The translations under genes and the position numbers were made by a program. A DNA stretch of 64,000 bases from assembly GCF_035046485.1 (NCBI RefSeq), contig NC_085137.1, positions 454,576,980-454,640,979 of the forward strand, written 5' to 3'. Below, in pieces: positions 4,915 through 61,855 of this stretch (the stretch's first letter is position 1; each line of letters opens with the position of its first letter). The notes beneath the pieces were generated by a model, which saw only the letters and a list, made by a program, of their open reading frames with translations, searched no databases and had not been told where the DNA came from. Origin of the DNA: Aedes albopictus (lineage: Eukaryota; Arthropoda; Insecta; Diptera; Culicidae).

Positions 4915-6299
4915 AGGATTTCTGACAAAATCCTCACAAGGTTTTCTCGAAGGATTTGAAACGAAATCCTTGCAAGAATTTAGACGAAATCCTCGCATGA
5001 TTTTAGACGAAATCCTCGTGAGATTTCTGACAAAATCCTCACAAGATTTCAGACGAAATCCTCACAGGATTTCAGATAAAGTCCTCACAGTATTTCAGAA
5101 GAAATTCTTGCAGGATTTCAGAAGAAATTCTCGCTGGATTTCAGAAGAAATCCTCGCAGGATTTCAGAAGAAATTCTCGCAGGATTTCAGAAGAAATTCT
5201 AGCAGGATTTCAGAAGAAATTCTCGCAGGATTTCAGATGAAATCCTCGCAGGATTTCAGATGAAATCCTCGCAGAATTTCAGATGAAATCCTCGCAGGAT
5301 TTCAGAAGAAATCCTCGCAGGATTTCAGAAGAAATCCTCGCAGGATTTCAGACGAAATTCTCGCAGGATTTCAGACGAAATTCTCGCAGGATTTCAGACG
5401 AAATCCTCGCAGAATTTTCGACGAAATCCTCGCTGGATTTCAGACGAAATCCTCGCAGGATTTCAGACGAAAACCTCGCAGGATTTCAGACGAAATTCTT
5501 GCAGAATTTCAGAAAAAAATCTTGCAGAATTGCAGATGAAATTCTTGCAGAATTTCAGAAGAAATTCTTGCAGAGTATCAGAGAAAATCTTTGTAGGGTT
5601 TCAGTGGGAACTGAGGCTGGATTTTAGACGGAGCCCTCGCCGGATTTCAGACGAAATCCTTGCAGGATTTCAGACGAAATTCTTACAGAATTTCAGACGA
5701 AATCTTTGGAGGGTTCCATTGGGAACCTGCGCTGCATTTGAGACGAAATTCTTGCAGAATTTCACATGAAAATCTTGCAGAGTTTCAGACGAAATTCTTG
5801 CAGAGTTTCAGACGAAATCTTTGAAGGATTTCAGTGGGAACCGAGGCTGGATTTGAGACGGAGCCTTCGCCGGATTTCAGACGAAATTCTTGCAGAGTTT
5901 CAGACGAAATTCCTGCAGAGTTTCAGACGAAATCTTTGCAGGGTTCCAGTGGGAACCGGCGCTGGATTTGAGACGAAATTCTTGCAGAATTTCACACGAA
6001 ATTCTTGCAGAATTTCACACGAAATTCTTGCAGAATTTCACACGAAATTCTTGCAGAATTTCACACGAAATTCTTGCAGAATTTCACACGAAATTCTTGC
6101 AGAATTTCATACGAAATTCTTGCATAGTTTCAGACGAAATCTTTACAGGGTTTCAGTAGGAACCGAGGCTGGATTTGAGTCGGAGTCCTCGCCGGATTTC
6201 AGACGAAATCCTTGCAGGATTTCAGACGAAATTCTTGCAGAATTTCAAACGAAATTCTTGCAAAATTTCAGACGAAATTCTTGCAGAATTTCAGACTTA
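4915..6299. repeat. 23-bp quasi-palindromic array A2a (AGGATTTC arms)
   Basis: The main unit has arms AGGATTTC and GAAATCCT, loop AGAC (or AGAA, AGAT) and linker CGC. At about 5980-6115 the arms are AGAATTTC and GAAATTCT with loop ACAC, still complementary. At 5560-6200 there is a five-unit higher-order repeat of 115 bp, marked by a divergent unit containing gggaacc-g-g-gctgg. Confidence 0.92.
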
Positions 6300-6311
6300 A
6301 GTGCAAGTTAG

Positions 6312-9070
6312 TGGAATCCTCTCAGGATTGCAGACGGCATCCTCTCAGGATTGCAGACGAAATCCTCTCAGGATTCAAGACGGAATCCTCTCAGGATTCC
6401 AGACGGAATCCTCTCAGGATTCCAGACGGAATCCTCTCAGGATTCCAGACGGAATCCTCTCAGGATTCCAGACGGAATTTTCTCAGGATTCCAGACGGAA
6501 TCCTCTCAGGATGCCAGACGGAATCCTCCCAGGATGCCAGACGGAATCCTCTCAGGATGCCAGACGGAATCCTCTCAGGATGCCAGACGGAATCCTCTCA
6601 GGATTCCAGACGGAATCCTCTCAGGATTCCAGACGGAATCCTCTCAGGATTCCAGACGGAATCCTCTCAGGATTCCAGACGGAATCCTCTCAGGATTCCA
6701 GACGGAATCCTCTCAGGATTCCAGACGGAATCCTCTCAGGATTCCAGACGGAATCCTCTCAGGATTCCAGACGGAATCCTCTCAGGATTCCAGACGGAAT
6801 CCTCTCAGGATTCCAGACGGAATCCTCTCAGGATTCCAGACGGAATCCTCTCAGGATTCCAGACGGAATCCTCTCAGGATTCCAGACGGAATCCTCTCAG
6901 GATTCCAGACGGAATCCTCTCAGGATTCCAGACGGAATCCTCTCAGGATTCCAGACGGAATCCTCTCAGGATTCCAGACGGAATCCTCTCAGGATTCCAG
7001 ACGGAATCCTCTCATGATTCCAGACGGAATCCTCCCAGGATTCCAGACGGAATCCTCCCAGGATTTCAGACGGAATTCTCACAGGATTCCAGACGAAATC
7101 CTCGCAGGCATTCAGATGAAATCCTCTCAAGATTCCAGACGGAATCCTCCCAGGATTCCAGACGGAATCCTCCCAGGATTCCAGACGGAATCCTCCCAGG
7201 ATTCCAGACGGAATCCTCCCAGGATTCCAGACGGAATCCTCCCAGGATTCCAGACGGAATCCACCCAGGATTCCAGACGGAATCTTCTCAGGATTCCAGA
7301 CGGAATCCACCCAGGATACCAGACGGATTCCTCTCAGGATTCCAGACGGAATCCTCTCAGGATTCCAGACGGAATCCTCTCAGGATTCTAGACGGAATCC
7401 TCTCAGGATTCCAGACGGAATCCTCTCAGGATTCCAGACGGAATCCTCCCAGGATTCCAGACGGAATCCTCCCAGGATTCCAGACGGAATCCTCCCAGGA
7501 TTCCAGACGGAATCCTCCCAGGATTCCAGACGGAATCCTCCCAGGATTCCAGACGGAATCCTCCCAGGATTCCAGACGGAATCCTCCCAGGATTCCAGAC
7601 GGAATCCTCCCAGGATTTCAGACGGAATCCTCCCAGGATTTCAGACGGAATCCTCCCAGGATTCCAGACGGAATCCTCTCAGGATTCCAGACGGAATCCT
7701 CCCAGGATTCCAGACGGAATCCTCCCAGGATTCCAGACGGAATCCTCCCAGGATTCCAGACGGAATCCTCCCAGGATTCCAGACGGAATCCTCCCAGGAT
7801 TCCAGACGGAATCCTCCCAGGATTCCAGACGGAATCCTCCCAGGATTCCAGACGGAATCCTTCCAGGATTCCAGGCGGAATCCTCCCAGGATTCCAGACG
7901 GAATCCTCCCAGGATTCCAGACGGAATCCTCCCAGGATTCCAGACGGAATCCTCCCAGGATTCCAGACGGAATCCTCCCAGGATTCCAGACGGAATCCTC
8001 CCAGGATTCCAGACGGAATCCTCCCAGGATTCCAGACGGAATCCTCCCAGGATTCCAGACGGAATCCTCCCAGGATTCCAGACGGAATCCTCCCAGGATT
8101 CCAGACGGAATCCTCCCAGGATTCCAGACGGAATCCTCCCAGGATTCCAGACGGAACCTCCCAGGATTCCAGACGGAATCCTCCCAGGATTCCAGACGGA
8201 ATCCTACCAGGATTCCAGACGGAATCCTACCAGGATTCCAGACGGAATCCTACCAGGATTCCAGACGGAATCCTCCCAGGATTCCAGACGGAATCCTCCC
8301 AGGATTCCAGACGGAATCCTCCCAGGATTCCAGACGGAATCCTCCCAGGATTCCAGACGGAATCCTCCCAGGATTCCAGACGGAATCCTCCCAGGATTCC
8401 AGACGGAATCCACCCAGGATTCCAGACGGAATCTTCTCAGGATTCCAGACGGAATCCACCCAGGATTCCAGACGGAATCCTCCCAGGATTCCAGACGGAA
8501 TCCTCCCAGGATTCCAGACGGAATCCTCCCAGGATTCCAGACGGAATCCTCCCAGGATTCCAGACGGAATCCTCCTAGGATTCCAGACGGAATCCTCCCA
8601 GGATTCCAGACGGAATCCTCCCGGGATTCCAGACGGAATCCTACCAGGATTCCAGACGGAATCCTACCAGGATTCCAGACGGAATCCTACCAGGATTCCA
8701 GACGGAATCCTACCAGGATTCCAGACGGAATCCTACCAGGATTCCAGACGGAATCCTACCAGGATTCCAGACGGAATCCTACCAGGATTCCAGACGGAAT
8801 CCTACCAGGATTCCAGACGGAATCCTACCAGGATTCCAGACGGAATCCTCCCAGGATTCCAGACGGAATCCTCCCAGGATTCCAGACGGAATCCTCCCAG
8901 GATTCCAGACGGAATCCTCCCAGGATTCCAGACGGAATCCTCCCAGGATTCCAGACGGAATCCTCCCAGGATTCCAGACGGAATCCTCCCAGGATTCCAG
9001 ACGGAATCCTCCCAGGATTCCAGACGGAATCCTCTCAGATTCCAAGAAACTCTCTTAGAATTCCAGATTT
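6312..9070. repeat. 23-bp quasi-palindromic array A2b (AGGATTCC arms, loop AGAC)
   Basis: About 119 units carry arms AGGATTCC and GGAATCCT and loop AGAC. The 3-bp linker defines blocks: CTC (about 6312-7015), CCC (most of 7135-8200 and 8830-9030) and ACC (about 8205-8250 and 8640-8830). It follows A2a with a short break. The unit is the exact reverse complement of that in array A3 (22779-25562). All three forward frames lack stops for long stretches, which produces a spurious 788-codon frame. Confidence 0.96.
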
Positions 9071-11740: not shown

Positions 11741-13070
11741 CCAGAAAAGACAGAGAAGACAGAGAATACAGAGAAGACAGAGAAGACAGAGAAGACAGAG
11801 AAGACAGAGAGGACAGAGAAGACAGAGAAGACAGAGAAGACAGAGAAGACAGAGAAGACAGAAGACAGAGACGACAGAGACGACAGAGACGACAGAGAAG
11901 ACAGAGAACACAGAGAATACAGAGAAGACAGAGAAAATAGTAGACAGAGAAGACAGAGAAAATAGAGGAGACTGAAGGCAGAGAAGACAGAGAAGACAGA
12001 GAAGACAGAGAAGACAGAAAAGACAGAGAAGACAGAGAAGACAGAGAAAATAGAGGAGACCGAAGGCAGAGAAGACAGAAAAAAAAAGAGCAGACATAGA
12101 AAGCAGAGCGGACAAAGAAGACAGAGATGACAGAGAAGACAGAGCAGACATAGAAGGCAGAGCAGACAGAGAAGACAGAGCAGACAGAGAAGACAGAGAA
12201 TACAGCGAAGACAGAGAAGACATAGAAGACAGAGAAGATAGAGTAGACAGAGAAGACGGAGAATACAGCGTAGACAGAGCAGACAGAGAAGACAGAGTAG
12301 ATAGAGAAGGTGGAGAAGACAGAAAAGACAGAGAAGACAGAGAATACAGCGTAGACAGAGAAGACAGAGCAAACAGAGAAGGCAGAGCAGACATAGAAGG
12401 CAGAGCAGACAGAGCAGACAGAGAAGACAGAGAAGACAGCGAAGACATAGAAGACAGAGAATACAGCGAAGACAGAGAATACAGCGAAGACAGAGCAGAC
12501 AGAGAAGACAGAGTAGACAGAGAAGATGAAGAAGACAGAAAAGACAGAGAAGACAGAGAATACAGCGAAAACAGAGAAGACAGAGCAGACAAAGCAGACA
12601 GAGAAGACAGAGCAGACAAAGCAGACAGAGAAGACAGAGAAGACATAGAAGGCAGAGCAGGCAGAGAAGACGGAGACAGAGTAGACAGGGAAGACAGAGA
12701 ATACAGCGAAAACAGAGAAGACAGAGTAGACAGAGAAGATGGGAAGACAGAGAATACAGCGGAGACAGAGAAGACAGGGAAGACAGAGAATACAGCGAAG
12801 ACAGAGAAGACAAGGAAGACAGAGATGATAGAGAAGCCAGAGCAGACATAGAAGGCAGAGCGGACAAAGAGGACAGAGAAGACAGAGAATACAGCGAAGA
12901 CAGAGCAGATAGAGAAGACAGAGAAGACAGAGAAGATGGAGGAGACAGAAAAGACAGAGAAGACAGAGAATACAGCGAAGACAGAGAAGACAACAGACAA
13001 AGCAGACAGAAAAGACAGAGAAGACAGAGAAGGCAGAAAATACAGAAAAGATAGAGAAGAAAGAGAAGAG
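11741..13070 (+). repeat. GA-rich 9-bp minisatellite (GAAGACAGA)n, forward segment 1
   Basis: The unit gaagacaga is interspersed with variants such as gaatacagc, gcagacaga and gtagacaga. There is no stop in three minus-strand frames, which generates spurious Ser/Leu-rich frames of more than 430 codons. Confidence 0.93.
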
Positions 13071-13185
13071 TATTTTCTGTATTCTTATCTTCTCCGTATT
13101 CTCTGTCTTCTCCGTCTTCTCTCTGTCTTCTCTAGCTTTTCTGCCCTCTGTCTTCTTTGTCTTCTCTGTTTTTCCCATCTGATGA
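13071..13185 (-). repeat. GA minisatellite, strand-switched segment 1
   Basis: The strand bias flips to (tcttctctg)n at 13071. The junction is a hairpin with gaaaatac before and gtattttc after a purine-rich spacer. The segment returns to the forward orientation near 13186. Confidence 0.85.
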
Positions 13186-13894
13186 CAGAAAAGACAGAGC
13201 AGACATAGAAGGCAGGGAATACAACGCAGACAGAGAATACAGCGCAGACAGAGAAGACAGATTAGACAAAGAAGACAGAGAAGACAGCGCAGACAGAGCA
13301 GACAGAGAAGACAGAGAAGACAGAGAAGACAGCGAAGACATAGAAGACATAGAAGACAGAGTAGACAGAGAAGACAGAGAATACAGCGAAGACAGAAAAG
13401 AAAGAGTCGACAGAAAAGACAGAGTAGACAGAGAAGATGGAGAAGACAGAAAAGGCAGTGAAGACAGAGAATACAGCGAAGACATAGAAGACATAGAAGA
13501 CAGAGTAGACAGAGAAGACAGAGCAGACAGAGAATACAGCGAAGACAGAGAAGACATATAAGACGGAGACAGAGCGGACAGGGAAGACAGAGAAGACAGA
13601 GAATACAGCGAAAACAGAGAAGACATAGAAGACAGAGTAGACAGAGAAGATGGAGAAGACAGAAAAGACAGAGAATACAACGGAGACAGAGAAGACAGAG
13701 ATGATAGAGAAGACAGAGTAGACAGAGAAGATGGAGGAGACAGAAAAGACAGAGAAGACAGAAAATACAGCGGAGACAGAAAAGACAGAGAAGACAGAAA
13801 ATACAGCGGAGACAGAGAAGACAGAGCAGACAAAGCAGACAGAAAAGACAGAGAAGACAGAAAATACAGAAAAGATAGAGAAGAAAGAGAAGAG
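13186..13894 (+). repeat. GA minisatellite, forward segment 2
   Basis: This continues the (gaagacaga)n array with gaatacagc variants. Its last ~70 bp duplicate the end of forward segment 1 at an offset of 824 bp. Confidence 0.88.
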
Positions 13895-14135: not shown

Positions 14136-14137
14136 TA

Positions 14138-21954: not shown

Positions 21955-22150
21955 TCAGTTCTGTGCCTTCAGGGGACGGAGATGGTCAAGTGGCTCCGTA
22001 GCTTTGAAGAAAGAAGCGCCCGTCTAGCGAATTGGGAGTCGTGGGTTCGATTCCCACCGGAGCACGTGGATTCTTTTCATAATCCAAATCTCAATCCACT
22101 TGTTTCTGTTGTGTGCATGAATGTCAAAGCAATCAAACAACATATTTAGG
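21955..22150 (+). mobile_element. tRNA-derived SINE-like copy, plus strand
   Basis: A possible A box is at ggtcaagtggctccgtagc (about 21983-22001). The body has gaaagaagcgcccgtc, a B box GGTTCGATTCC lies near 22047-22057, then cggagcacgtg and a tail with gtttctgttgt. It pairs with the inverted copy at 21655-21860. Confidence 0.6.
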
Positions 22151-22778: not shown

Positions 22779-25562
22779 GGTCCTTGGGAGAATTCCGTCT
22801 GAAATCCTGGGAGAATTTCGTCTGGAATCGTAGGAGGATTTCGTCTTGAATCCTGCGAGAATTCCGTCTGAAATCCTGAGAGGATTCCGTCTGAAATCCT
22901 GAGAGGATTCCGTCTGGAATCCTGAGAGGCTTCCTTCGGGAATCCTGAGAGGATTCCTTCGGGAATCTTGAGAGGATTCCTTCGGGAATCCTGAGAGGAT
23001 TCCATCGGGAATCCTGAGAGGATTCCTTCGGGAATGATGAGAGGATTCCTTCGTTAATGCTGAGAGGATTCCTTCGGGAATCCTGAGAGGATTCCTTGTG
23101 GAATCCTGAGAGGATTCCTTCGGGAATCCTGAGAGGATTCCTTCGGGAATCCTGAGAGGATTCCGTCTGGAATCCTACGAAAATTCCGTCTGGAATCCTG
23201 GGAGGATTCCGTCTGGAATCCTGGGAGGATTCCGTCTGGAATCCTACGAAAATTCCGTCTGGAATCCTGGGAGTATTCCGTCTGGAATCCTGGGAGGATT
23301 CCGTCTAGAATCCTGGGAGAATTCCGTCTGGTATCCTGGCAGAATTTCGTCTGGAATCCTGGGAGGATTCCGTCTGGAATCCTGGGAGTATTCCGACTGG
23401 AATCCTGAGAGGATTCCGTCTGGAATCCTGAGAGGATTCCGTCTGGAATCCTGAGAGGATTCCGTCTGGAATCCTGAGAGGATTCCGTCTGGAATCCTGA
23501 GAGGATTCCGTCTGGAATCCTGAGAGGATTCCGTCTGGAATCCTGAGAGGATTCCGTCTGGAATCCTGAGAGGATTCCGTCTGGAATCCTGAGAGGATTC
23601 CGTCTGGAATCCTGAGAGGATTCCGTCTGGAATCCTGAGAGGATTCCGTCTGGAATCCTGAGAGGATTCCGTCTGGAATCCTGAGAGGATTCCGTCTGGA
23701 ATCCTGAGAGGATTCCATCTGGAATCCTGGGAGGATTCCGTCTAGAATCCTGGGAGAATTCCGTCTGGTATCCTGGCAGAATTTCGTCTGGAATCCTGGG
23801 AGGATTCCGTCTGGAATCCTGGGAGTATTCCGACTGGAATCCTGAGAGGATTCCGTCTGGAATCCTGAGAGGATTCCGTCTGGAATCCTGAGAGGATTCC
23901 GTCTGGAATCCTGAGAGGATTCCGTCTGGAATCCTGAGAGGATTCCGTCTGGAATCCTGAGAGGATTCCGTCTGGAATCCTGAGAGGATTCCGTCTGGAA
24001 TCCTGAGAGGATTCCGTCTGGAATCCTGAGAGGATTCCGTCTGGAATCCTGAGAGGATTCCGTCTGGAATCCTGGGAGGATTCCGTCTGGAATCCTGGGA
24101 GGATTCCGTCTGGAATCCTGGGAGGATTCCGTCTGGAATCCTGGGAGGATTCCGTCTGGAATCCTGGGAGGATTCCGTCTGGAATCCTGGGAGGATTCCG
24201 TCTGGAATCCTGGGAGGATTCCGTCTGGAATCCTGGGAGGATTCCGTCTGGAATCCTGGGAGGATTCCGTCTGGAATCCTGGGAGGATTCCGTCTGGAAT
24301 CCTGGGAGGATTCCGTCTGGAATCCTGGGAGGATTCCGTCTGGAATCCTGGGAGGATTCCGTCTGGAATCCTGGGAGGATTCCGTCTGGAATCCTGGGAG
24401 GATTCCGTCTGGAATCCTGGGAGGATTCCGTCTGGAATCCTGGGAGGATTCCGTCTGGAATCCTGGGAGGATTCCGTCTGGAATACTGGGAGGATTCCGT
24501 CTGGAATCCTGGGAGGATTCCGTCTGGAATCCTGGGAGGATTCCGTCTGGAATCCTGGGAGGATTCCGTCTGGAATCCTGGGAGGATTCCGTCTGGAATC
24601 CTGGGAGGATTCCGTCTGGAATCCTGGGAGGATTCCGTCTGGAATCCTGGGAGGATTCCGTCTGGAATCCTGGGAGGATTCCGTCTGGAATCCTGGGAGG
24701 ATTCCGTCTGGAATCCTGGGAGGATTCCGTCTGGAATCCTGGGAGGATTCCGTCTGGAATCCTGGGAGGATTCCGTCTGGAATCCTGGGAGGATTCCGTC
24801 TGGAATCCTGGGAGGATTCCGTCTGGAATCCTGGGAGGATTCCGTCTGGAATCCTGGGAGGATTCCGTCTGGAATCCTGGGAGGATTCCGTCTGGAATCC
24901 TGGGAGGATTCCGTCTGGAATCCTGGGAGGATTCCGTCTGGAATCCTGGGAGGATTCCGTCTGGAATCCTGGGAGGATTCCGTCTGGAATCCTGGGAGGA
25001 TTCCGTCTGGAATCCTGGGAGGATTCCGTCTGGAATCCTGGGAGGATTCCGTCTGGAATCCTGGGAGGATTCCGTCTGGAATCTTGGGAGGATTCCATCT
25101 GGAATCCTGGGAGGATTCCGTCTGGAATCTTGGAAGGATTCCGTCCGGAATCTTGGAAGGATTCCGTCCGGAATCTTGGAAGGATTCCGTCCGGAATCTT
25201 GGAAGGATTCCGTCCGGAATCTTGGAAGGATTCCGTCCGGAATCTTGGAAGGATTCCGTCCGGAATCTTGGAAGGATTCCGTCCGGAATCTTGGAAGGAT
25301 TCCGTCCGGAATCTTGGAAGGATTCCGTCCGGAATCTTGGAAGGATTCCGTCCGGAATCTTGGAAGGATTCCGTCCGGAATCTTGGAAGGATTCCGTCCG
25401 GAATCTTGGAAGGATTCCGTCCGGAATCTTGGAAGGATTCCGTCCGGAATCTTGGAAGGATTCCGTCTGGAATGATCCTATCTAGAATCCTGAAATGATT
25501 TCGACTGGAATCATGTGAGTATTACGTCTGGAATCCCGTAAGGATTCCCTCCGGAGTCCTGT
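22779..25562. repeat. 23-bp quasi-palindromic array A3 (AGGATTCC arms, loop GTCT)
   Basis: Main units have arms AGGATTCC and GGAATCCT, loop GTCT and linker GAG (mainly before about 24070) or GGG (about 24070-25080). The block 25130-25460 has loop GTCC, linker GGA and arm GGAATCTT, giving one G-T wobble. An upstream sub-block (about 22920-23160) has loop TTCG. A 437-bp (19-unit) segment is repeated at 23301 and 23738. The main unit is the reverse complement of the A2b unit. The spurious 597-codon minus-strand frame arises here. Confidence 0.96.
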
Positions 25563-25981
25563 TCAAAGTTAAACTGCTGAAAATTTAAAAGTTAATACTT
25601 AATTTCGGAATCGAAAGAGAATGGTGAAATCTTCTGCACAGTTACCGCTTGAAACAGTGTGTCTCACATTATATAGCTTATATTCAACCAACCAGCAATA
25701 AAATCACAAAATTGGTTCGCCGTGTTCTAATCAACTTTTTTGTTTCATTCTTTTCATTTCACGCTATCCCAAACAAAAAAAATAAAACTGAATCTGGTCG
25801 CCATCTTATGATTTCGATAATTGTGCTGCATTTGCGTTGCTGTCGTGCTGTTGTCACACCCCTAAAATTACACGCATTCACTCACGCAACGTCCAACATC
25901 TACACAACATCTATCAAACAAACACACACACACACAAAACCCCCGCTGAATTGCCACGATAAGAAGACCGAATTATTGCAG
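25563..25981 (+). other. Region between array A3 and Rbfox1 exon a
   Basis: This is a short AT-rich intron end or 5' region with a CA-repeat run near 25918-25936. The Rbfox1 frame stays open back to 25649, so part of it could be exonic in some transcripts. Composition looks non-coding. Confidence 0.5.
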
Positions 25982-26422
25982 CAAACGGAACCAGAAACGC
26001 AAGTCTCAAGTGCCAACAACCAAAACCAAAACAACCAATCGAACATCAGTACGGCCAGCACCGGCAGCTGTAGTTCCCCGTCGGATATCGCCACAGCCGC
26101 CGCCGCCATCATCGCCAGCAGTGCGCAGCTGGTCAGTAGCGGAGCGGGAAGCAGCAGTAGTAGTCCCGGCAGTTGTATCATGACTACCGGAAGCAGTACC
26201 ATCACGACCACGGCCGGTACCGGGACTGTGCCGCTGAGTACGGCCCAGCAGGCACTAGTGTCGGTTGCGCAGAGCCAACAGCAGCAGCAGCAACAACAGA
26301 ACGTGGCCGCGGCCGTGGCAGCCGCCACCGCGCTAGCCGAATCCAAAGCACAACCAAAGCGACTACACGTGTCGAATATTCCGTTCCGATTTCGGGACCC
26401 GGACCTGCGGTCCATGTTTGGG
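25982..26422 (+). CDS. Rbfox1: Rbfox1/A2bp1 exon a: low-complexity N-terminal region and start of RRM (partial gene)
   Basis: This exon encodes part of the Fox-1 family splicing regulator, a nuclear protein that binds UGCAUG in introns and controls alternative exons. Counting from the acceptor proposed here it has 147 codons. The first ~120 residues are rich in Ser, Thr, Ala, Asn and Gln, with a run of eight Gln (26276-26299, mixed CAG/CAA) and an Ala-rich stretch just after it. The last ~24 residues start the RRM. RNP2 LHVSNI is followed by [14 protein letters not shown], retaining the His and Phe that contact RNA in vertebrate Rbfox. The 3' end is a good donor (GGG then gtaagt at 26423) in phase 0. 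The 5' end is uncertain: I chose the cag at 25979-25981, but its pyrimidine tract is poor. The exon may extend upstream, where the same frame stays open with ATG codons at 25649 and 25808. Identification is firm; the 5' boundary is not. Confidence 0.93.
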
Positions 26423-26668
26423 GTAAGTAGCAAGGGTTGAAAATTATGGGATGGGTGAGGTTTTTAGAATGAATATCGCACTCGAAAAATCTATAAAAGG
26501 TTCCGTTTAAATTCCTGTGAAGATTGCGGCTGTGAAGGTCCTGGATTATTGTGAGGATTCCTTTCGGAATTCTGTGAGGATTCTCCACGGAATCCTGTGA
26601 GGATTCCCCTCGGAATCCTGTGAAGATTTCCCTCGGAATCCCGTGAGGATTCTCCTCGAAATCGTGTG

Positions 26669-27521
26669 AGGATTTTCCTCAGAATCCTGTGATGATTTTC
26701 CTTGGAATCCTGTGAGGATTCCCCTCCTGAATCTTGCGAGGATTCTTTCCGGAATCCTGCGAGGTTTCCTTCCGGAGTCCTGTGAGGATTCCTTCCGGAG
26801 TCCTGCGAGGATTCCCTCCGGAATGCTGCGAGGATTCTCTTTTGAATCGTGTAAAGAATTTCCTCGGAATCCTGTGAGAATCCTCAACGGAATCTCGTGG
26901 GGATTCCCTCTGGAATCTTGTAAGAATTCCTTCTGGAATCTTGTAAGGATTCCCTCTGGAATTTTATAAGGATTCCCTCTGGAATCTTGTAGGGATACCC
27001 TCTGGAATCTTGTAAGGTTTCTCTTTGGAATCCGATGAGGATTCGTCCTGGTATCTTGTGAAGATTCCCCCTGGATTCCTGAGAGGATTCCCCCAAAGAA
27101 TTCTTTTATGATTCCCTCAAAGAATCCTGTAATGATTCCCTTTGGAATCCTGTGAGGATTCCTCCTGGAATCCTGAGAGGATTCCTCTTGGAATCCTGAG
27201 AGGATTCCCCTTGAAACCCTGAGAGGATTTCTCCTGGAATCCTGAGAGGATTTCTCCGGGAATCCTGAGAGGATTTCTCCTGGCATCCTAAGAGGATTTC
27301 TCCTGGAATCCTGAGAGGATTTATCCTGGAATCCTGACAGAATTTCTCCTGGAATCCTGAGAGGATTTCTCCTGGAATCCTAAGAGGATTTCTCCTGGAA
27401 TCCTGAGAGGATTTCTGCCGGAATCCTGAGAGGATTCCTCCGGGAAACACGAGAGGATTTCTCCTGGAATCCTGAGAGGGTTTTCCTGGAATTTTGAGAG
27501 GATTTCTCCTGCAATCCTGAG
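26669..27521. repeat. Higher-order repeat in A4, copy 1 (853 bp)
   Basis: This block of diverged 23-bp units starts near gaggattttcctcagaatcc. It repeats at an offset of 853 bp with very few differences, while neighbouring 23-bp units inside each copy differ much more from one another. Confidence 0.85.
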
Positions 27522-28374
27522 AGGATTTTCCTCAGAATCCTGTGATGATTTTCCTTGGAATCCTGTGAGGATTCCCCTCCTGAATCTTGCGAGGATTCTT
27601 TCCGGAATCCTGCGAGGTTTCCTTCCGGAGTCCTGTGAGGATTCCTTCCGGAGTCCTGCGAGGATTCCCTCCGGAATGCTGCGAGGATTCTCTTTTGAAT
27701 CGTGTAAAGAATTTCCTCGGAATCCTGTGAGAATCCTCAACGGAATCTCGTGGGGATTCCCTCTGGAATCTTGTAAGAATTCCCTCTGGAATCTTGTAAG
27801 GATTCCCTCTGGAATTTTATAAGGATTCCCTCTGGAATCTTGTAGGGATACCCTCTGGAATCTTGTAAGGTTTCTCTTTGGAATCCGATGAGGATTCGTC
27901 CTGGTATCTTGTGAAGATTCCCCCTGGATTCCTGAGAGGATTCCCCCAAAGAATTCTTTTATGATTCCCTCAAAGAATCCTGTAATGATTCCCTTTGGAA
28001 TCCTGTGAGGATTCCTCCTGGAATCCTGAGAGGATTCCTCTTGGAATCCTGAGAGGATTCCCCTTGAAACCCTGAGAGGATTTCTCCTGGAATCCTGAGA
28101 GGATTTCTCCGGGAATCCTGAGAGGATTTCTCCTGGCATCCTAAGAGGATTTCTCCTGGAATCCTGAGAGGATTTATCCTGGAATCCTGACAGAATTTCT
28201 CCTGGAATCCTGAGAGGATTTCTCCTGGAATCCTAAGAGGATTTCTCCTGCAATCCTGAGAGGATTTCTGCCGGAATCCTGAGAGGATTCCTCCGGGAAA
28301 CACGAGAGGATTTCTCCTGGAATCCTGAGAGGGTTTTCCTGGAATTTTGAGAGGATTTCTCCTGCAATCCTGAG
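27522..28374. repeat. Higher-order repeat in A4, copy 2 (853 bp)
   Basis: This is a near-identical tandem copy of 26669-27521. It differs by a few substitutions (for example gcaatcc for ggaatcc near 28251) and leads into the gcaatcc-type block. Confidence 0.85.
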
Positions 28375-40189: not shown

Positions 40190-41350
40190 GTGATTTCGAT
40201 TCGATTCTGATTCGATTCCGATTCGATTTCGACTCGATTTCGATTCTATTCGATTTTGATTCGATTTCGATTCGATTTCGATTCGATTTCGATTCGATTT
40301 CGATTACGATTCGATTACGATTCGATTTCGATTTCGATTACTATTCGATTTCGATTTCGATTCGATTTCGATTCGGTTTAGATTCGATTTCGATTTCGAT
40401 TTGATTTCGATTCGGTTTAGATTCGATTTCGATTTCGATTTCGATTTCGATTTCGATTTCGATTTCGATTTCGATTCGGTTTCGATTCGATTTCGATTCG
40501 ATTTCGATTCGATTTCGATTCGATTTCGATTCGATTTCGATTCGATTTCGATTCGATTTCGATTCGATTTCGATTCGATTTCGATTCGATTTCGATTCGA
40601 TTTCGATTCGATTTCAATTCGATTTCGATTCGATTTCGATTCGATTTCGATTCGATTTCGATTCGATTTCGATTCGATTTCGATTCGATTTCGATTCGAT
40701 TTCGATTCGATTTCGATTCGATTTCGATTCGATTTCGATTCGATTTCGATTCGATTTCGATTCGATTTCGATTCGATTTCGATTCGATTTCGATTCGATT
40801 TCGATTCGATTTCGATATGATTTCGATTCGATTTCGATTCGATTTCGATTCGATTTCGATTCGATTTCGATTCGATTTCGATTCGATTTCGATTCGATTT
40901 CGATTCGATTTCGATTCGATTTCGATTCGATTTCGATTCGATTTCGATTCGATTTCGATTCGATTTCAATTCGATTTCGATTCGATTTCGATTCGATTTC
41001 GATTCGATTTCGATTCGATTTCGATTCGATTTCGATTCGATTTCGATTCGATTTCGATTCGATTTCGATTCGATTTCGATTCGATTTCGATTCGATTTCG
41101 ATTCGATTTCGATTCGATTTCGATTCGATTTCGATTCGATTTCGATTCGATTTCGATTCGATTTCGATTCGATTTCGATTCGATTTCGATTCGATTTCGA
41201 TTCGATTTCGATTCGATTTCGATTCGATTTCGATTCGATTTCGATTCGATTTCGATTCGATTTCGATTCGATTTCGATTTCGATTCGATTTCGATTCGAT
41301 TTCGATTCGATTTCGATTCGACTTCGATTCGATTTCGATTCGATTTCATG
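40190..41350 (+). repeat. 11-bp array, forward orientation (TTTCGATTCGA)n
   Basis: There are about 100 units, nearly perfect between 40490 and 41340. A left edge (40435-40485) is made of 6-bp ttcgat... units that omit part of the 11-mer. Each unit holds two TCGA palindromes separated by alternating 1- and 2-bp gaps. The spurious plus-strand frames read Phe/Asp/Ser/Ile/Arg repeats. Confidence 0.95.
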
Positions 41351-42000
41351 ATTGGATTTTATGATTCGATTTCATGATATGATTCAATGAATCGATTTCA
41401 TTTTAAATGGATTTCTATTCAATTTTGATTCGATTTCGATTCTATTTCGATTCTATTTCGATTCGATTTCGATGCGATTTCGATTCGATTTCGATTCGAT
41501 TTTGATTCGATTTCGATTCGATTTTGATTCGATTTCGATTTGATTCGATATCGATTCAATTTCATGATTCGATTTTGATTCGATTTCATGATTCGATTGT
41601 ATGATTCCGATTCATGATATGATTCAATGAATCGATTTCATGATTGGATTTTAAAAGATTTCGATTCAATTTTGATTCGATTTCGATTTTATTTCGATTC
41701 GATTTCGATTCGATCTCGATTTGATTTCGATTCGGTTTCATGATCCGATTTCATGATTCGATTTCGATTCGATTTCATGATTTGATTTTATGATTCGATT
41801 GTATGATTCGATTTCATGATTGGATTGTAAAAGATTTCGATTCAATTTTGATTCGATTTCGATTCAATTTCGATTCGATCTCGATATGATTTCGATTCGG
41901 TTTCATAATCCGATTTCATGATTCGATATCGATTCGATTTCATGATTTGATTTTATGATTCGATTTTATAACTCGATTCGATATTCTTAGGATTTAGTTT
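41351..42000 (+). repeat. Degenerate ATGATT/TCGATT tract, forward
   Basis: This is decayed flank of the 11-bp array mixed with gatttcatgattcgattt-type units of variable length. Two sub-blocks (about 41345-41540 and 41570-41750) look like degenerate copies of one another. Confidence 0.75.
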
Positions 42001-44846: not shown

Positions 44847-44876
44847 TTGCAACATTATGCTACAGTTTTATTTTCG

Positions 44877-46810: not shown

Positions 46811-47342
46811 TTTTCAATCGCGGACTAAGGCATAAAAAAAAATCAAGAAGTTTTCAACAATACACCCACATCGTCCAACGCCATCCCCATCGCCATCATC
46901 ATCCTCCCACAAGTCAGTGTTGCGTCTTGCGTCCTGTCGAGACTTAGGAAAAGAAAAGACGAAAAGTTTTCCACAGCTTCCACTTTCACTGATTACTACA
47001 GTCTGCTGCGTAGTTTCAGAGCTCAGCCTGGGAAAATCCGCTGGGAAATTTCACAGGTACCACGCATTGCGACGAGCGTTCGATTTAATGGTAAATAGCT
47101 CGTCGAATTTGTTTACTCTTCTCCCTCTTATCATATACATTCAATGAAGTTTTAATCATCTTTTGTAAACAGATTGCCGCCTCCTCCGGGGGGGTTCGGT
47201 TGATGTCAGACACACAGAGATATTATTTAGGTGATGACATTTTCGATGCGAAAAGGACTTCGCTCGACTTAGAAGGAGGGGAGGTTCTTCGAAAAAAAAT
47301 GGTGGAAAACGAAGGGAGCACAAGAATAGAAAGTGTTTTCCC

Positions 47343-50300
47343 GAGAGGATTTTTCACAGAACCCTGAGAATCCTTCACAGAATCCTGAGAAGATTCTTCA
47401 CATAATCTTAAGAGGATTCTTCACAGAATTCTGAGAGCATTCTTCACTGAATACGAAGAGGATTCTTGTCAGAATCCTGAAAGGATTCTTGTCAGAATTC
47501 TGAGAGGATTCTTGTCAGAATGCTGAGAGGATTATTGTCAGAATCCTGAGAGGATTCTTGTCAGAATCCTGAGAGGATTCTTGTCAGAATCCTGAGAGGA
47601 TTCTTGTCAGAATCCTGAGAGGATTCTTGTCAGAACCCTGAGAGGATTCTTGTCAGAATCCTGAGAGGATTCTTGTCAGAATCCTGAGAGGATTCTTGTC
47701 AGAATCCTGAGAGGATTCTTGTCAGAATCCTGAGAGGATTCTTGTCAGAATCCTGAGAGGATTCTTGTCAGAATCCTGAGAGGATTCTTGTCAGAATCCT
47801 GAGAGGATTCTTGTCAGAATCCTGAGAGGATTCTTGTCAGAATCCTGAGAGGATTCTTGTCAGAATCCTGAGAGGATTCTTGTCAGAATCCTGAGAGGAT
47901 TCTTGTCAGAATCCTGAGAGGATTCTTGTCAGAATCCTGAGAGGATTCTTGTCAGAATCCTGAGAGGATTCTTGTCAGAATCCTGAGAGGATTCTTGTCA
48001 GAATCCTGAGAAGATTCTTGTCAGAATCCTGAGAGGATTCTTGTCAGAATCCTGAGAGGATTCTTGTCAGAATCCTGAGAGGATTCTTGTCAGAATCCTG
48101 AGAGGATTCTTGTCAGAATCCTGAGAGGATTGTTGTCAGAATCCTGAGAGGATTGTTGTCAGAATCCTGAGAGGATTCTTGTCAGAATCCTGAGAGGATT
48201 CTTTTCAGAATCCTGAGAGGATTCTTATCAGAATCCTGAGAGGATTCTTGTCAGAATCCCGAGAGGATTCTTGTCAGAATCCCGAGAGGAACCTTGTCAG
48301 AATCCCGAGAGGATTCTTATCAGAATCCCGAAAGGATTATTATCAGAATCCCGAGAGGATTCTTGTCAGAATCCCGAGAGGATTCTTGTCAGAATCCCGA
48401 GAGGATTCTTGACAGAATCCCGAGAGGATTCTTGACAGACTCCTGAGAGGATTCTTGACAGAATCCTGAGAGGATTCTTGACAGAATCCTGAGAGGATTC
48501 TTGACAGAATCCTGAGAGGATTCTTGACAGAATCCTGAGAGGATTCTTGACAGAATCCTGAGAGGATTCTTGACAGAATCCTGAGAGGATTCTTGACAGA
48601 ATCCTGAGAGGATTCTTGACAGAATCCTGAGAGGATTCTTGACAGAATCCTGAGAGGATTCTTGACAGAATCCTGAGAGGATTCTTGACAGAATCCTGAG
48701 AGGATTCTTGACAGAATCCTGAGAGGATTCTTGACAGAATCCTGAGAGGATTCTTGACAGAATCCTGAGAGGATTCTTGACAGAATCCTGAGAGGATTCT
48801 TGACAGAATCCTGAGAGGATTCTTGACAGAATCCTGAGAGGATTCTTGACAGAATCCTGAGAGGATTCTTGACAGAATCCTGAGAGGATTCTTGACAGAA
48901 TCCTGAGAGGATTCTTGACAGAATCCTGAGAGGATTCTTGACAGAATCCTGAGAGGATTCTTGACAGAATCCTGAGAGGATTCTTGACAGAATCCTGAGA
49001 GGATTCTTGACAGAATCCTGAGAGGATTCTTGACAGAATCCTGAGAGGATTCTTGACAGAATCCTGAGAGGATTCTTGACAGAATCCTGAGAGGATTCTT
49101 GACAGAATCCTGAGAGGATTCTTGTCAGAATCCTGAGAGGATTCTTGTCAGAATCCTGAGAGTATTCTTGACAGAATCCTGAGAGTATTCTTGACAGAAT
49201 CCTGAGAGGATTCTTGACAGAATCCTGATAGGATTCTTGACAGAATCCTGAGAGGATTCTTGACAGAATCCTGAGAGGATTCTTGACAGAATCGTGAGAG
49301 GATTCTTGACAGAACCCTGAGAGGATTCTTGACAGAATCCTGAGAGGATTCTTGACAGAATCCTGAGAGGATTCTTCACAGAAGCTTGAGAGGATTCTTC
49401 ACAGAATCCTAAGAGGATTCTTCTCAGAATCCTGGGAGGATTCTTCTCAGAATCCTGGGAGGATTCTTCTCAGAATCCTGGGAGGATTACTCTCAGAATC
49501 CTGGGAGGATTCCTCCCAGAATCCTGGCAGGATTCTTCTCAGAATCCTGGCAGGATTCTTCTCAGAATCCTGGCAGGATTCTTCTCAGAATCCTGGGAGG
49601 ATTCTTCTCAGAATCCTGGGAGGATTCTTCTCAGAATCCTGGGAGGATTCTTCTCAGAATCCTGGGAGGATTCTTCTCAGAATCCTGGGAGGATTCTTCT
49701 CAGAATCCTGGGAGGATTCTTCTCAGAATCCTGGGAGGATTCTTCTCAGAATCCTGGGAGGATTCTTCTCAGAATCCTGGCATGATTCTTCACAGAAACC
49801 TGGGAGGATTCTTCTCAGAATCCTGGGAGGATTTTTTTCAGAATCCTGAGAGGATTCTTTTCAGAATCCTGAGAGGATTCTTCTCAGAATCCTGGGAGGA
49901 TTCTTCTCAGAATCCTGGGAGGATTCTTCTCAGAATCCTGGGAGGATTCTGCTCAGAATCCTGGGAGGATTCTTCTCAGAATCCTGGGAGGATTCTTCTC
50001 AGAATCCTGGGAGGATTCTTCTCAGAATCCTGGGAGGATTCTTCTCAGAATCCTGGGAGGATTTTTCTCAGAATCCTGGGAGGATTCTTCTCAGAATCCT
50101 GGGAGGATTCTTCTCAGAATCCTGGGAGGATTCTTCTCAGAATCCTGGGAGGATTCTTCTCAGAATCCTGGGAGGATTCTTCTCAGAATCCTGGGAGGAT
50201 TCTTCTCAGAATCCTGAGAGGATTCTTCTCAGAATCCCGGAAGGATTCTTCTCAGAATCCATAGAGGATTCTTCTCAGAATTCATAGAGGATTTTTCTCA

Positions 50301-50466
50301 GAATCCATAGAGGATTCTTCTCAGAATCCAGAGAGGATTCTTCTCAGAATCCCTAGAGGATTCTTCTCAGAATCCTTAGAGGATTCTTCTCAGAATCCTT
50401 AGAGGATTCTTCTCAGAATCCTTAGAGGATTCTTCACATTATACTGAGATGATTCTTCACTGAATC
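47343..50466. repeat. 23-bp quasi-palindromic array A6 (AGGATTCT arms)
   Basis: Units have arms AGGATTCT and AGAATCCT. The loop defines blocks: TGTC (47460-48400), TGAC (48400-49370) and TCTC (49390-50440). The linker is GAG, then GGG in the TCTC block, then TAG variants at the right edge. There are about 136 units. It decays into ATGATT-rich sequence after 50460. Confidence 0.96.
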
Positions 50467-51275: not shown

Positions 51276-51282
51276 CACTGGA

Positions 51283-57098: not shown

Positions 57099-57117
57099 TT
57101 TCTTGTTCTGTCCTTTT

Positions 57118-57123: not shown

Positions 57124-57126
57124 TAG

Positions 57127-57219
57127 GGATTCGGTTTTGTAACATTCGCTAATAGTAGCGATGCGGAGCGAGCACGCGAACGTCTTCACGGCACTGTGGT
57201 TGAGGGACGCAAGATTGAG
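57127..57219 (+). CDS. Rbfox1: Rbfox1/A2bp1 exon c: 93-nt RRM cassette exon carrying RNP1
   Basis: The exon has 31 codons and is phase 0 at both ends. It begins with RNP1 (GFGFVTF, completed by the Lys that ends exon b), continues with [16 protein letters not shown], and ends with VVEGRKIE. The two RNP1 Phe residues and the Arg of EGRK that contact UGCAUG in vertebrate Fox-1 are present. Its size, phase and content match the vertebrate 93-nt exon whose skipping yields an in-frame protein lacking RNA binding, with dominant-negative behaviour. The acceptor is pyrimidine-rich and ends in gtag at 57126. The donor, GAG then gtgtgc, departs from gtaagt at several positions and looks weak, as expected for a regulated exon. 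UGCAUG motifs lie just upstream and just inside the downstream intron. The next RRM exon is not in this window. Confidence 0.97.
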
Positions 57220-57834
57220 GTGTGCATGAACAGATTTTTTTACAAAAAAAAACTTCATACTGAAAATTCCCTGTCCTATATCCCTGATCCAAGGCAATTT
57301 TCCCGCAACTCCTGGAAATCGAGAGAAAATCCGAAATCGTAGATGTTAGACATTTTACTGTGGTCCTAAATTTTTGAATGATGCCTGAGGATGCGGTTGG
57401 GTAGCACAAGTGATGCAATTCTAATTATTTTACAGTTATCATCATTGCTAGATATCTATGTCTTAGGTACAACGAATGTAAATGATAATTTCATAATTTC
57501 CTTTTTCTAGCTAGGTGACGGAGTGGCTGGTCGGCTGGATGAAGAAATGTGTGTTTCCGAAAGCGTAATGCCTCAAGGCATCATTTATGTACTAAATAAC
57601 TTCCTGAGAGCATCCAAAATATAGCTCCAATTTCCACTACAACGTTGTTTGGAGGCCCATGAAGATTTCGTCTGAGCTTGTTTGTTCTTCTGAAATTCTG
57701 GGAGTGTTTTGTCTGAAATTTTGGAATGAATTCAAATTAAAATGCTGTTTCTACATCTGGACCTCTCTAACGTATACGTAGGGAAAACTGCCTACCGCCT
57801 GGAAACTTTTGCAAACTTCTGTTTGAAATCCTGA
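57220..57834 (+). other. Rbfox1: Start of the intron after the 93-nt exon, single-copy
   Basis: This AT-rich sequence follows the gtgtgc donor up to the start of the next 23-bp array. I searched it for the next RRM exon (expected to begin VNNATARV) and did not find it, so that exon must lie beyond the window. Confidence 0.8.
57223..57228 (+). promoter_or_regulatory. UGCAUG (Rbfox site) at the 5' splice site of the 93-nt exon
   Basis: TGCATG occupies intron positions +4 to +9 after the donor gtgtgc, so it overlaps the U1 snRNA pairing region. Downstream UGCAUG normally enhances inclusion, but one overlapping the donor may instead block U1. The donor itself is weak. Confidence 0.7.
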
Positions 57835-60800
57835 TTCTCAGATTCTCAGAGTATTGTGAGAACTCCACCAAAAATCCTGTAGGGATGTCTCCAGCAATCC
57901 TTTAAGAATTTCCCTTAAATCCTGTAAGAATTCTCTCCGGAATTCTGTGAGAATTCTCCCCGGTATCCTGTGAGGATTTTCTCTGGAATCCTGAGAGGAT
58001 TCCCCACGAAATTCTGCGGGGATTCCCCACGGTATCCTGTGAGTATTCCCCCCGAAATCATGTGAGGATTCCCCCTGGAATTCTGTGAGGATTTCCCCAG
58101 GAATCCTGTGAGGGTTCTTCCTGGAATCCTGTGAGGATTCTCCCTGAGATCCTGTGAAGATTCTCCCTGGAATCCTGTAGGATTCCCCCTGGAATTCTGT
58201 GAGGATTTCCCCAGGAATCCTGTGAGGATTTCCCCTGGAATCCTGTGAGGATTTCCCCTGGAATCCTGTGTGTGTTCCCCCTGAAATCTCAGGAAAGTTC
58301 CCCTCGGCATCCTGTGAGAATTCCCCTCGGAACCCTGTGAGGATTCCCCTAGGAATCCTGTGAGGATTCCCCCCGGAATCCTGTGAGGATTCCCCCCGGA
58401 ATCCAGTGAGGATTCCCTTCGGAATCCTGTGAGGATTCCCTTCGGAATCCTGTGAGGATTCCCTTCGGAATCCTGTGAGGATTCCCTTCGGAATCCTGTG
58501 AGGATTCCCTTCGGAATCCTGTGAGGATTCCCTTCGGAATCCTGTGAGGATTCCCTTCGGAATCCTATGAGGATTCCCCCCGGAATCCTGTGAGAATTCT
58601 CCCCGGAATCCTGTGAGGATTCCCCCCGGATTCCTGTGAGGCTTCCCCCCGGAATCCTGTGAGGATTCCCCCCGGAATCCTGTGAGGCTTCCCCCCGGAA
58701 TCCTGTGAGGATTCCCCCCCGGAATCCTGTGAGGATTCCCCCCGGAATCCTGTGAGGATTCCCCCCGGAATCCTGTGAGGATTCCCCCCGAAATCCCGTG
58801 AGGATTCCCCCCGGAATCCTGTGAGGATTCCCCCCGGAATCCTGTGAGGATTCCCCCCGGAATCCTGTGAGGATTCCCCCCGGAATCCTGTGAGGATTCC
58901 CCCCGGAATCCTGTGAGGATTCCCCCCGGAATCCTGTGAGGATTCCCCCCGGAATCCTGTGAGGATTCCCCCCGGAATCCTGTGAAGATTCCCCCCGGAA
59001 TCCTGTGAGGATTCCCCCCGGAATCCTGTGAGGATTCTCCCCGGAATCCTGTGAGGATTCTCCCCGGAATCCTGTGAGGATTCCCCCCGGAATCCTGTGA
59101 GGATTCCCCCCGGAATCCTGTGAGGATTCCCCCCGGAATCCTGTGAGGATTCCCCCCGGAATCCTGTGAGGATTCCCCCCGGAATCCTGTGAGGATTCCC
59201 CCCGGAATCCTGTGAGGATTCCCCCCGGAATCCTGTGAGGATTCCCCCCGGAATCCTGTGAGGATTCCCCCCGGAATCCTGTGAGGATTCCCCCCGGAAT
59301 CCTGTGAGGATTCCCCCCGGAATCCTGTGAGGATTCCCCCCGGAATCCTGTGAGGATTCCCCCCGGAATCCTGTGAGGATTCCCCCCGGAATCCTGTGAG
59401 GATTCCCCCCGGAATCCTGTGAGGATTCCCCCCGGAATCCTGTGAGGATTCCCCCCGGAATCCTGTGAGGATTCCCCCCGGAATCCTGTGAGGATTCCCC
59501 CCGGAATCCTGTGAGGATTCCCCCCGGAATCCTGTGAGGATTCCCCCCGGAATCCTGTGAGGATTCCCCCCAGAATCCTGTGAGGATTCCCCCCGGAATC
59601 CTGTAAGGATTCCTCCCGGAATCCTGTGAGGATTTCCCCCCGGAATCATGTGAGGATTCCCCCCGGAATCCTGTGAGGATTCCCCCCGGAATCCTGTGAG
59701 GATTCCCCCCGGAATCCTGTGAGGATTCCCCCCCGGAATCCTGTGAGGATTCCCCCCCGGAATCCTGTGAGGATTCCCCCCCGGAATCCTGTGAGGATTC
59801 CCCCCCCGGAATCCTGTGAGGATTCCCCCCCCGGAATCCTGTGAGGATTCCCCCCCGGAATCCTGTGAGGATTCCCCCCCGGAATCCTGTGAGGATTCCC
59901 CCCCGGAATCCTGTGAGGATTCCCCCCGGAATCCTGTGAGGCTTCCCCCCGGAATCCTGTGAGGATTCCCCCCGGAATCCTGTGAGGATTCCCCCCCGGA
60001 ATCCTGTGAGGATTCCCCCCGGAATCCTGTGAGGATTCCCCCCGGAATCCTGTGAGGATTCCCCCCCGGAATCCTGTGAGGATTCCCCCCGGAATCCTGT
60101 GAGGATTCCCCCCGGAATCCTGTGAGGATTCCCCCCGGAATCCTGTGAGGATTCCCCCCGGAATCCTGTGAGAATTCCCCCCGGAATCCTGTGAGGATAC
60201 CCCCCGGAATCCTGTGAGGATTCCCCCCGGAATCCTGTGAGGATTCCCCCCGGAATCCTGTGAGGATTCCCCCCGGAATCCTGTGAGGATTCCCCCCGGA
60301 ATCCTGTGAGGATTTCCCCCGGAATCCTGTGAGGATTCCCCCCGGAATCCTGTGAGGATTCCCCCCGGAATCCTGTGAGGATTCCCCCCGGAATCCTGTG
60401 AGGATTCCCCCCAGAATCCTGTGAGGATTCCCCCCGGAATCCTGTGAGGATTCCTCCCGGAATCCTGTGAGGATTTCCCCCCGGAATCCTGTGAGGATTC
60501 CCCCCGGAATCCTGTGAGGATTCCCCCCCGGAATCCTGTGAGGATTCCCCCCCGGAATCCTGTGAGGATTCCCCCCCCGGAATCCTGTGAGGATTCCCCC
60601 CCGGAATCCTGTGAGGGTTCCCCCCCGGAATCCTGTGAGGATTCCCCCCCGGAATCCTGTGAGGATTCCCCCCCGGAATCCTGTGAGGATTCCCCCCCGG
60701 AATCCTGTGAGGATTCCCCCCCGGAATCCTGTGAGGATTCCCCCCCGGAATCCTGTGAGGATTCCCCCCCGGAATCCTGTGAGGATTCCCCCCCGGAATC

Positions 60801-61855
60801 CTGTGAGGATTCCCCCCCGGAATCCTGTGAGGATTCCCCCCCGGAATCCTGTGAGGATTCCCCCCCGGAATCCTGTGAGGATTCCCCCCCGGAATCCTGT
60901 GAGGATTCCCCCCCGGAATCCTGTGAGGATTCCCCCCCGGAATCCTGTGAGGATTCCCCCCCGGAATCCTGTGAGGATTCCCCCCCGGAATCCTGTGAGG
61001 ATTCCCCCCCGGAATCCTGTGAGGATTCCCCCCGGAATCCTGTGAGGATTCCCCCCCGGAATCCTGTGAGGATTCCCCCCCGGAATCCTGTGAGGATTCC
61101 CCCCCGGAATCCTGTGAGGATTCCCCCCCGGAATCCTGTGAGGATTCCCCCCCGGAATCCTGTGAGGATTCCCCCCCGGAATCCTGTGAGGATTCCCCCC
61201 CGGAATCCTGTGAGGATTCCCCCCCGGAATCCTGTGAGGATTCCCCCCCGGAATCCTGTGAGGATTCCCCCCCCGGAATCCTGTGAGGATTCCCCCCCGG
61301 AATCCTGTGAGGATTCCCCTCGGAATCCTGTGAGGATTCCCCTCGGAATCCTGTGACGATTCCCCTTGGAATCCTGTGAGGATCCCCTTGGAATCCTGTG
61401 ACGATTCCCCTTGGAATCCTGTGAGGATTCCCCTCGGAATCCTGTGAGAATTCACTCGGAATCCTGTGAGGATTCCCCTCGGAATCCTGTGAGGATTCTC
61501 CTCGGAATCCTGTGAGAATTCCCCTCGGAATCCTGTGAGAATTCCCCTCGGAATCCTGTGAGAATTCCCCTCGGAATCCTGTGAGAATTCCCCTCGGAAT
61601 CCTGTGAGGATTCCCCTCGGAATCCTGTGACGATTCCCCTTGTAATCCTGTGAGGATCCCCTTGGAATCCTGTGACGATTCTCCTTGGAATCCTGTGAGG
61701 ATTCCCCTCAGAATCCTGTGAGAATTCACTCGGAATCCTGTGAGGATTCACTCGGAATCCTGTGAGGATTCACTCGGAATCCTGTGAGGATTCCCCTCGG
61801 AATCCTGTGAGGATTCCCCCCGGAATCCTGTGGGGATTCCCCCCGGAATCGAATC
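57835..61855. repeat. 23/24-bp quasi-palindromic array A7 (loop CCCC)
   Basis: Units have arms AGGATTCC and GGAATCCT, loop CCCC or CCCCC (occasionally six C) and linker GTG. Hence 23- and 24-bp units are mixed, with long 24-bp runs at 59720-59920, 60520-61020 and 61045-61310. The left edge (57835-58330) is degenerate. An 841-bp higher-order repeat links a marker unit (cccagaatcc) at 59571 and 60412. The right edge (61320-61850) has loops CCTC, CTTG and CACT. Open frames of more than 1000 codons on the minus strand are artefacts. Confidence 0.96.

Follow-up and report, generated by a model that had tools for sequence, protein, structure and literature searches.

The human Y minisatellite MSY1 is a single locus, 75% A+T, with a 25-bp unit of invariant length that is predicted to form a hairpin and whose variant units lie in blocks. 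In the part of its description drawn on here, the hairpin is proposed to take part in mutation, and slippage is considered plausible for simple length changes (PMC2599865). Dyads shorter than 10 bp, capable of forming stem-loops or cruciforms, are enriched at some centromeres according to Kasinathan and Henikoff, as cited in an excerpt of PMC9070824. In Aedes aegypti, minisatellites with units of 7-99 bp are abundant, tandem repeats make up about 4.5-6.7% of each chromosome, and excerpts of the same report name hairpins and cruciforms as giving rise to breaks (PMC4021624). For mitochondrial repeats, an abstract describes a pause-melting misalignment model, in which melting of the nascent strand and mispairing lead to the gain or loss of units (PMC3599147). 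The present analysis concerns the minisatellites of a 64-kb stretch of the Aedes albopictus genome (the window: 64,000 nucleotides, positions 454,576,980 to 454,640,979 of the forward strand of contig NC_085137.1, assembly GCF_035046485.1). Their 23-bp unit consists of an 8-bp arm, a 4-bp loop, a complementary 8-bp arm, and a 3-bp linker. In these arrays, variants that break the stem arise about as often per site as variants of the loop and linker, yet they seldom become tandem runs.

All data come from this single window of one assembly. The 23-bp arrays were located with Tandem Repeats Finder and their units cut by cyclic alignment; every period-23 locus listed was included and pairing was no criterion, so none was picked for pairing. 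The seven loci, labelled A0, A1 (with parts A1a and A1b), A2, A3, A4, A6, and A7, comprise 10 segments and 1,158 units, and span 26,484 bp or 41.4% of the window. The original prediction of eight arrays over about 40% of the window was accurate in extent but not in number, as eight are reached only by splitting A1 or by counting in some other way. The top self-match period is 23 in all 10 segments, and all 10 consensuses form 8/8 pairs in the 8-4-8-3 frame, including those of A0 (1-2515), which had correctly been assigned the same design. When the bases of a unit are shuffled (20,000 trials), a fraction of 0.00015-0.0013 attains 8/8 at one rotation or another. The architecture had been called fixed, which is true of the consensuses but not of every unit: the A7 loop has 4, 5, or 6 bases in 88, 39, and 4 of 131 parsed units (5 or 6 in 43/131), and 4 of 119 A4 units have a linker of 4 bases.

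The idea of the test applied to these arrays reportedly goes back to McDonald and Kreitman. Unamplified variants reflect mutation, while tandem runs mark variants that have been amplified successfully. A variant whose longest run is at least 3 was scored as amplified and one with a run of 1 as unamplified; run-2 variants (32 in arms, 14 in loop or linker) were left out as intermediate. When all variants of the 1,158 units are counted, the arms hold 16 amplified and 175 unamplified variants, against 40 and 71 in the loop and linker (odds ratio (OR) 0.16, Fisher P = 8e-9). Among units derived by one step, runs of at least 3 are found for 2/102 arm-breaking changes (3/110 for any arm change) vs 13/67 loop or linker changes. 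Singletons are about equal per site, the 16 arm positions having 81 and the 7 loop and linker positions 36.

The contrast is largest in the true frame among all 23 rotations, and nearly as large at a shift of 12, which places the frame’s loop onto the linker. Permutation of position labels preserves the linkage of variants. With runs of at least 3, none of 5,000 shuffles attains the observed value, whether labels are permuted per array or identically across arrays (P = 2e-4); with runs of at least 2, P is 2e-4 per array and 1e-3 identically across arrays. The contrast persists when any single one of the 10 segments is dropped (worst P = 0.004), at non-CpG sites (P = 6e-8), and among variants present in at most 10% of units (P = 2.4e-4). 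It is significant for A/T transitions (P = 0.001), C/G transversions (P = 7e-5), and A/T transversions (P = 0.004). All eight array groups point in the same direction, and three are significant alone: A3 and A6 (both P = 0.02) and A0 (P = 0.005), whose arms are unlike those of the others.

The relation to the stem may differ between adjacent and separate identical copies. The comparison used 305 distinct units, the 10 commonest being left out, and matched them by their distance from the commonest one. An identical neighbour is found more often for intact units (Mantel-Haenszel OR 3.98, P = 2.7e-4), whereas their excess for separate copies is smaller and nonsignificant (OR 1.72, P = 0.19). For copies at least 5 units apart the OR is 1.64 (P = 0.27), and for never-adjacent units it is 0.81 (P = 0.88). 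Never-adjacent variants recur elsewhere in 88/175 cases for arms and 37/71 for loop and linker (P = 0.89). The pattern suggests, but does not prove, that the stem matters for the expansion of single units and not for the copying of blocks.

A number of results count against stem-dependent expansion. Five of the eight array groups are nonsignificant alone (A1a P = 0.22, A1b 0.53, A2 0.056, A4 0.058, A7 0.16), as are C/G transitions taken by themselves (arms 10 vs 30, loop and linker 14 vs 23, P = 0.33). Mismatched sub-families have been amplified in A4 (CGGATTTC GAAG GAAATCCT TCC, 7/8 paired, run of 9, mismatch in 69 units), A3 (AGGATTTC..GCAATCCT, run of 9), and A7 (AGAATTCC, run of 4), and a stem-broken sub-family of A2 with the arm GGAATCTT reaches a run of 14; the stem is not 8/8 in 4 of 20 units that reach runs of at least 4. 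Several arrays share a GGG/GAG linker polymorphism, perhaps by inheritance, so that amplified linker variants are not all independent, and all of the amplification tests slice the data of one window and are non-independent. Arrays with 11-bp and 9-bp units hold too few amplified variants for use as controls. At distance 2, adjacent copies show no difference (intact 2/14, broken 7/44). Without matching, separate recurrence is also higher for intact units (25/62 vs 49/253, OR 2.8, P = 0.001), which makes the contrast between adjacent and separate copies suggestive only. Singletons may include sequencing errors, and if many do, position-specific mutation rates could differ; the clearly diverged A0 array gives the same stem/loop pattern.

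Plain common descent with neutral turnover, in which an ancestral palindromic unit spread, was homogenised by unequal exchange, and left the stem as an inert relic, is an unlikely explanation, although it has several features on its side. The arrays share a common orientation, and loops and linkers are alike once oriented; tandem arrays commonly have degenerate ends, duplicated blocks, and higher-order repeats; and compensation of individual mutations is absent. However, neutral turnover predicts equal amplified-to-unamplified ratios in stem and in loop and linker, which the 16:175 and 40:71 observed are not. Arrays were also simulated with mutation and block duplication and deletion, ten arrays per set, under parameters that were author-set and unfitted. 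The 60 neutral sets give an OR of 0.97 (sd 0.19, lowest 0.61), all above the observed value, and none has P < 0.01. In 20 stem-dependent sets, where each mismatch quarters the chance of single-unit duplication, the OR is 0.06. The observed 0.16 lies between the neutral and stem-dependent sets, where a weaker or mixed process would be expected to place it.

Pairing in individual units is common but incomplete. After 139 of the 1,158 units with gaps or insertions were left out (56 of these in A7), 625 of 1,019 ungapped units are 8/8 paired, 262 are 7/8, and 132 are lower. The claim that the second arm always changes to match is thus contradicted by 394 units with a mismatch, as well as by the amplification of some mismatched sub-families. 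Compensation was assessed on one minimum spanning tree per segment, built from its distinct units (305 edges and 325 arm changes in all). Within arrays, both partners of a pair changed 7 times vs 8.6 (sd 2.7) expected under random placement, and this lack of excess means that there is no visible restoration of pairing after individual mutations. Mismatched pairs form 507 runs (153 G-T, 125 A-C, 229 other), against 21 runs of an alternative Watson-Crick pair.

Between the consensuses of arrays or amplified sub-arrays, pairing is kept where arms differ. Pairs 6/13 and 7/12 are each C-G or T-A, pair 2/17 is G-C or A-T, and the arms of A0 differ from those of the other arrays with pairing retained. 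The few arm changes between array consensuses are thus paired, whereas within arrays there is no excess of paired changes. Foldback template switching, which would correct one arm from the other, could account for these paired differences; the lack of both-sided excess within arrays and the 507 runs vs 21 speak against it, and it is very improbable. Counts at pair 2/17 of A1a are GC in 24, AT in 13, GT in 12, and AC in 8 units, the last two of which show that one-sided intermediates exist. What survives of the proposal that the hairpin is maintained is the specific form given above, namely that stem-breaking variants seldom form tandem runs.

Arm letters rather than pairing may be constrained, for example if the unit repeats a dyad-symmetric protein-binding motif. 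Such a constraint would likewise hold back the amplification of arm variants, and arms starting with AGGATT are the consensus at 6/7 loci. It is nevertheless an improbable explanation. Arm differences between arrays are paired (6/13, 7/12, 2/17), and A0 shows the same effect with different arms. Of the arm variants, transversions fare worst in amplification (4 vs 116) and transitions do better (12 vs 59, P = 0.002), a difference that is nonsignificant in the loop and linker (P = 0.32); although the numbers are small, tolerance of a G-T pair on one strand would be expected to give this pattern.

Array coordinates carry no strand. A0 (1-2515) is composed of AGAAGCTT GGGA AAGCTTCT C(C/T)N units in the pieces 1-592, 920-1147, and 1362-2515. 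An insert at 613-924 has inverted ends of 38 bp with 95% identity and resembles a miniature inverted-repeat transposable element (MITE), and a second interruption at 1148-1361 looks tRNA-like by eye, although tRNA searches gave no call there. A1 (4915-9050) begins with its degenerate part A1a (4915-6300), with the unit AGGATTTC AGAC GAAATCCT CGC/TGC and a sub-family AGAATTTC ACAC GAAATTCT TGC. It continues as A1b (6312-9050), whose unit AGGATTCC AGAC GGAATCCT C(C/T)C is the reverse complement of that of A2 (22785-25560; AGGATTCC GTCT GGAATCCT G(G/A)G). The remaining arrays are A3 (26520-33490; AGGATTCC TCCT GGAATCCT GGG), A4 (35150-38710; AGGATTTC GAAG GAAATCCT CCA), A6 (47340-50465; AGGATTCT TGTC/TGAC/TCTC AGAATCCT GAG/GGG), and A7 (57900-61850; AGGATTCC CCCC GGAATCCT GTG).

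Runs and blocks are prominent in these arrays. The longest run of identical units, in A3, is 46, and within the same array a block of 833 bp occurs in two copies at 99.8% identity (26668-27500 and 27521-28353). A4 has higher-order repeats at 36800-38380, with best lags of 667 bp (98.0%) and 345 bp (96.5%). No shared element ends were found between arrays in the 400-bp flanks of eight arrays, including the 11-bp array A5 (15 flanks); the sole flank match is a 33-bp inverted one between the left and right flanks of A4. A foldback or terminal-inverted-repeat element carrying the arrays is disfavoured, as no ends are common to different arrays.

At 6312-9045 and 22785-25570, A1b and A2 represent a single array unit in inverted copies, 91.4% identical over 2,691 bp and approximately 14 kb apart. 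They could form kilobase double-stranded RNA if they lay within one transcript. When the purine linker is placed last, A1b and A2 units are identical on opposite strands, and the other arrays have mostly pyrimidine loops and GRG-like linkers. All of the differing loops, linkers, and arms that had been listed are present, but they are not independent designs: because A1b and A2 are inverted copies and orientation aligns loops and linkers, their variety overstates the number of designs. A0 and A3 units match at 12/23 positions (P = 0.06 against random palindromes).

The window also contains arrays with shorter units. Two 11-bp arrays at 40190-41945 and 61850-64000, with the unit GATTTCGATTC and its reverse complement, are inverted partners with 89% identity over 1.75 kb. 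A7 abuts the second of these at 61830-61870 via the common letters GGAATC/GAATC, as if the 11-bp array had been seeded from the last A7 unit. A 2.1-kb array at 11742-13893 has the 9-bp, nearly all-purine unit CAGAGAAGA and an extreme asymmetry between strands, with an AT skew of 0.87 in 12001-13000. Two-unit patterns (three arm types against a viral collection and one type against another genome collection) and the A3 intron searched against plasmids gave zero matches, which is little informative as these collections are viral or prokaryotic.

The arrays lie in and around a mosquito Rbfox (RNA-binding Fox) gene, of which three RNA recognition motif (RRM) exons are found on the plus strand: 25982-26422, which holds the RRM start (donor at 26423), 34442-34495 (donor at 34496), and about 57127-57220, with an approximate 3' end. 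The joined three-exon RRM peptide matches RNA binding protein fox-1 homolog 1 (4zka, E = 2e-42), while a 23-residue exon piece has no match among solved structures. A longer peptide matches Pfam RRM_1 and is 80% identical to Aedes aegypti AAEL017168-PA over 204 aligned columns, with an identical RRM. A2 precedes the first RRM exon and A7 follows the third; of the two introns between these exons, the first holds A3 and the second A4 and A6. A tRNA-Ala (AGC) gene or pseudogene is located at 21992-22065 on the plus strand. This tRNA is the sole Rfam match at gathering score in the window, and the arrays have none.

Hairpins of the single unit are predicted more readily for DNA than for RNA. Ten author-chosen units were folded as DNA: six 8/8 consensus units at -6.0 to -7.1 kcal/mol, and four mismatched units with runs of at least 3 at -2.6 to -5.4 kcal/mol. 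Seven stretches of 13-17 units were then folded on both strands, giving 14 folds each as RNA and as DNA. The best DNA fold has about one hairpin per unit in 11/14; A3 departs from this on both strands and A6 on one. The best RNA fold has 1-8 hairpin loops per 13-17 units, and only 1 or 2 in 12/14, forming a long rod. The one-unit hairpin is therefore predicted for a single DNA strand more than for a transcript, and the string of hundreds of hairpins that had been pictured for RNA copies is not what these folds predict as the optimum.

Selection on RNA, with transcribed arrays acting as hairpin or double-stranded RNA (small RNAs, an ADAR substrate, or regulation within Rbfox introns), has some of these features in its favour: A3, A4, and A6 are in introns between RRM exons, A1b and A2 are 2.7-kb inverted partners, and 500 nt of A3 as RNA folds far below shuffles (z -16.7). 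In most cases the best RNA fold is a long rod, in which a single stem mismatch should make little difference, and this counts against the explanation. On the sense strand, G-T mismatches reach runs of at least 3 more often than A-C ones (11/153 vs 3/125), although nonsignificantly (P = 0.10). Paired or G-T states make up a larger share of amplified than of unamplified arm variants (9/16 vs 37/175, P = 0.004), which transition mutation bias could also explain. RNA-level selection is accordingly considered quite improbable, somewhat more so than a constraint on arm letters.

Directly observed are the dyad, the tandem runs and duplicated blocks, the shortage of runs among variants that break the stem, and the lack of compensation for individual mutations. 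The explanation proposed for them, whose chances of being right and wrong appear about equal, is a local family of hairpin-unit minisatellites in which single-unit expansion favours intact stems, for example through hairpin-stabilised slippage. An ancestral 23-bp unit with an 8-bp dyad stem would have given rise to most or all of the arrays, which would have grown in and around introns of the Rbfox gene. Single units would duplicate beside themselves in a step that favours an intact stem. The likeliest cause, to judge from the pattern of runs, would be a unit folded in single-stranded DNA at replication or repair, which would let the strand slip by exactly one unit. Unequal exchange or template switching would also duplicate larger blocks, a process on which the stem has no clear influence, and the paired arm changes between arrays would have passed through tolerated one-sided intermediates.

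Tandem repeats are usually treated as passive. A further reading, more tentative than stem-favouring expansion itself, makes the fold of the unit an agent of its own spread. Units with intact hairpins would duplicate singly, and others would be mainly passengers in blocks. Pairing would then be kept by biased amplification (molecular drive) rather than by selection on a product, and RNA-like covariation between arrays could arise without encoded function. If intact hairpins do decide which units expand, covariation, normally a mark of functional RNA, can arise from copying bias alone. The ratio of stem to loop amplification offers a simple test for any assembled repeat array.

Judged by the parts of these reports drawn on here, the window arrays resemble each known system in some respects. 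Dyads shorter than 10 bp are present in their repeat unit, as in the centromeric satellites; unlike these, however, the arrays form kilobase blocks in and around introns of a conserved gene, and the location of A3, A4, and A6 between RRM exons speaks against a centromere. Tandem-repeat abundance is shared with Aedes aegypti, for which the excerpted report gives densities rather than unit sequences or a dyad family. The pause-melting model concerns mitochondria and other units, and its abstract holds no stem/loop amplification test. A search of the mosquito literature, judged by titles and abstract openings and with most subscription journals outside its reach, found no report of the 23-bp unit or of a stem/loop contrast. 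The statement in the original prediction that no described family has this signature is too strong, as human MSY1 is a published hairpin-unit minisatellite (PMC2599865) and the closest published case found. Like MSY1, as far as its description was drawn on, the window arrays consist of hairpin-type units of approximately 25 bp (23 bp, 8/8 consensuses) arranged in blocks (runs to 46). They differ from it in occupying seven loci, in using several arm words, in a GC content of roughly 0.42-0.61 in the kilobases covered by array, and in the variable loop length of A7. What appears to be new is a mosquito family spread over several loci, whose arm words differ and in which the contrast between stem and loop amplification is quantitative.

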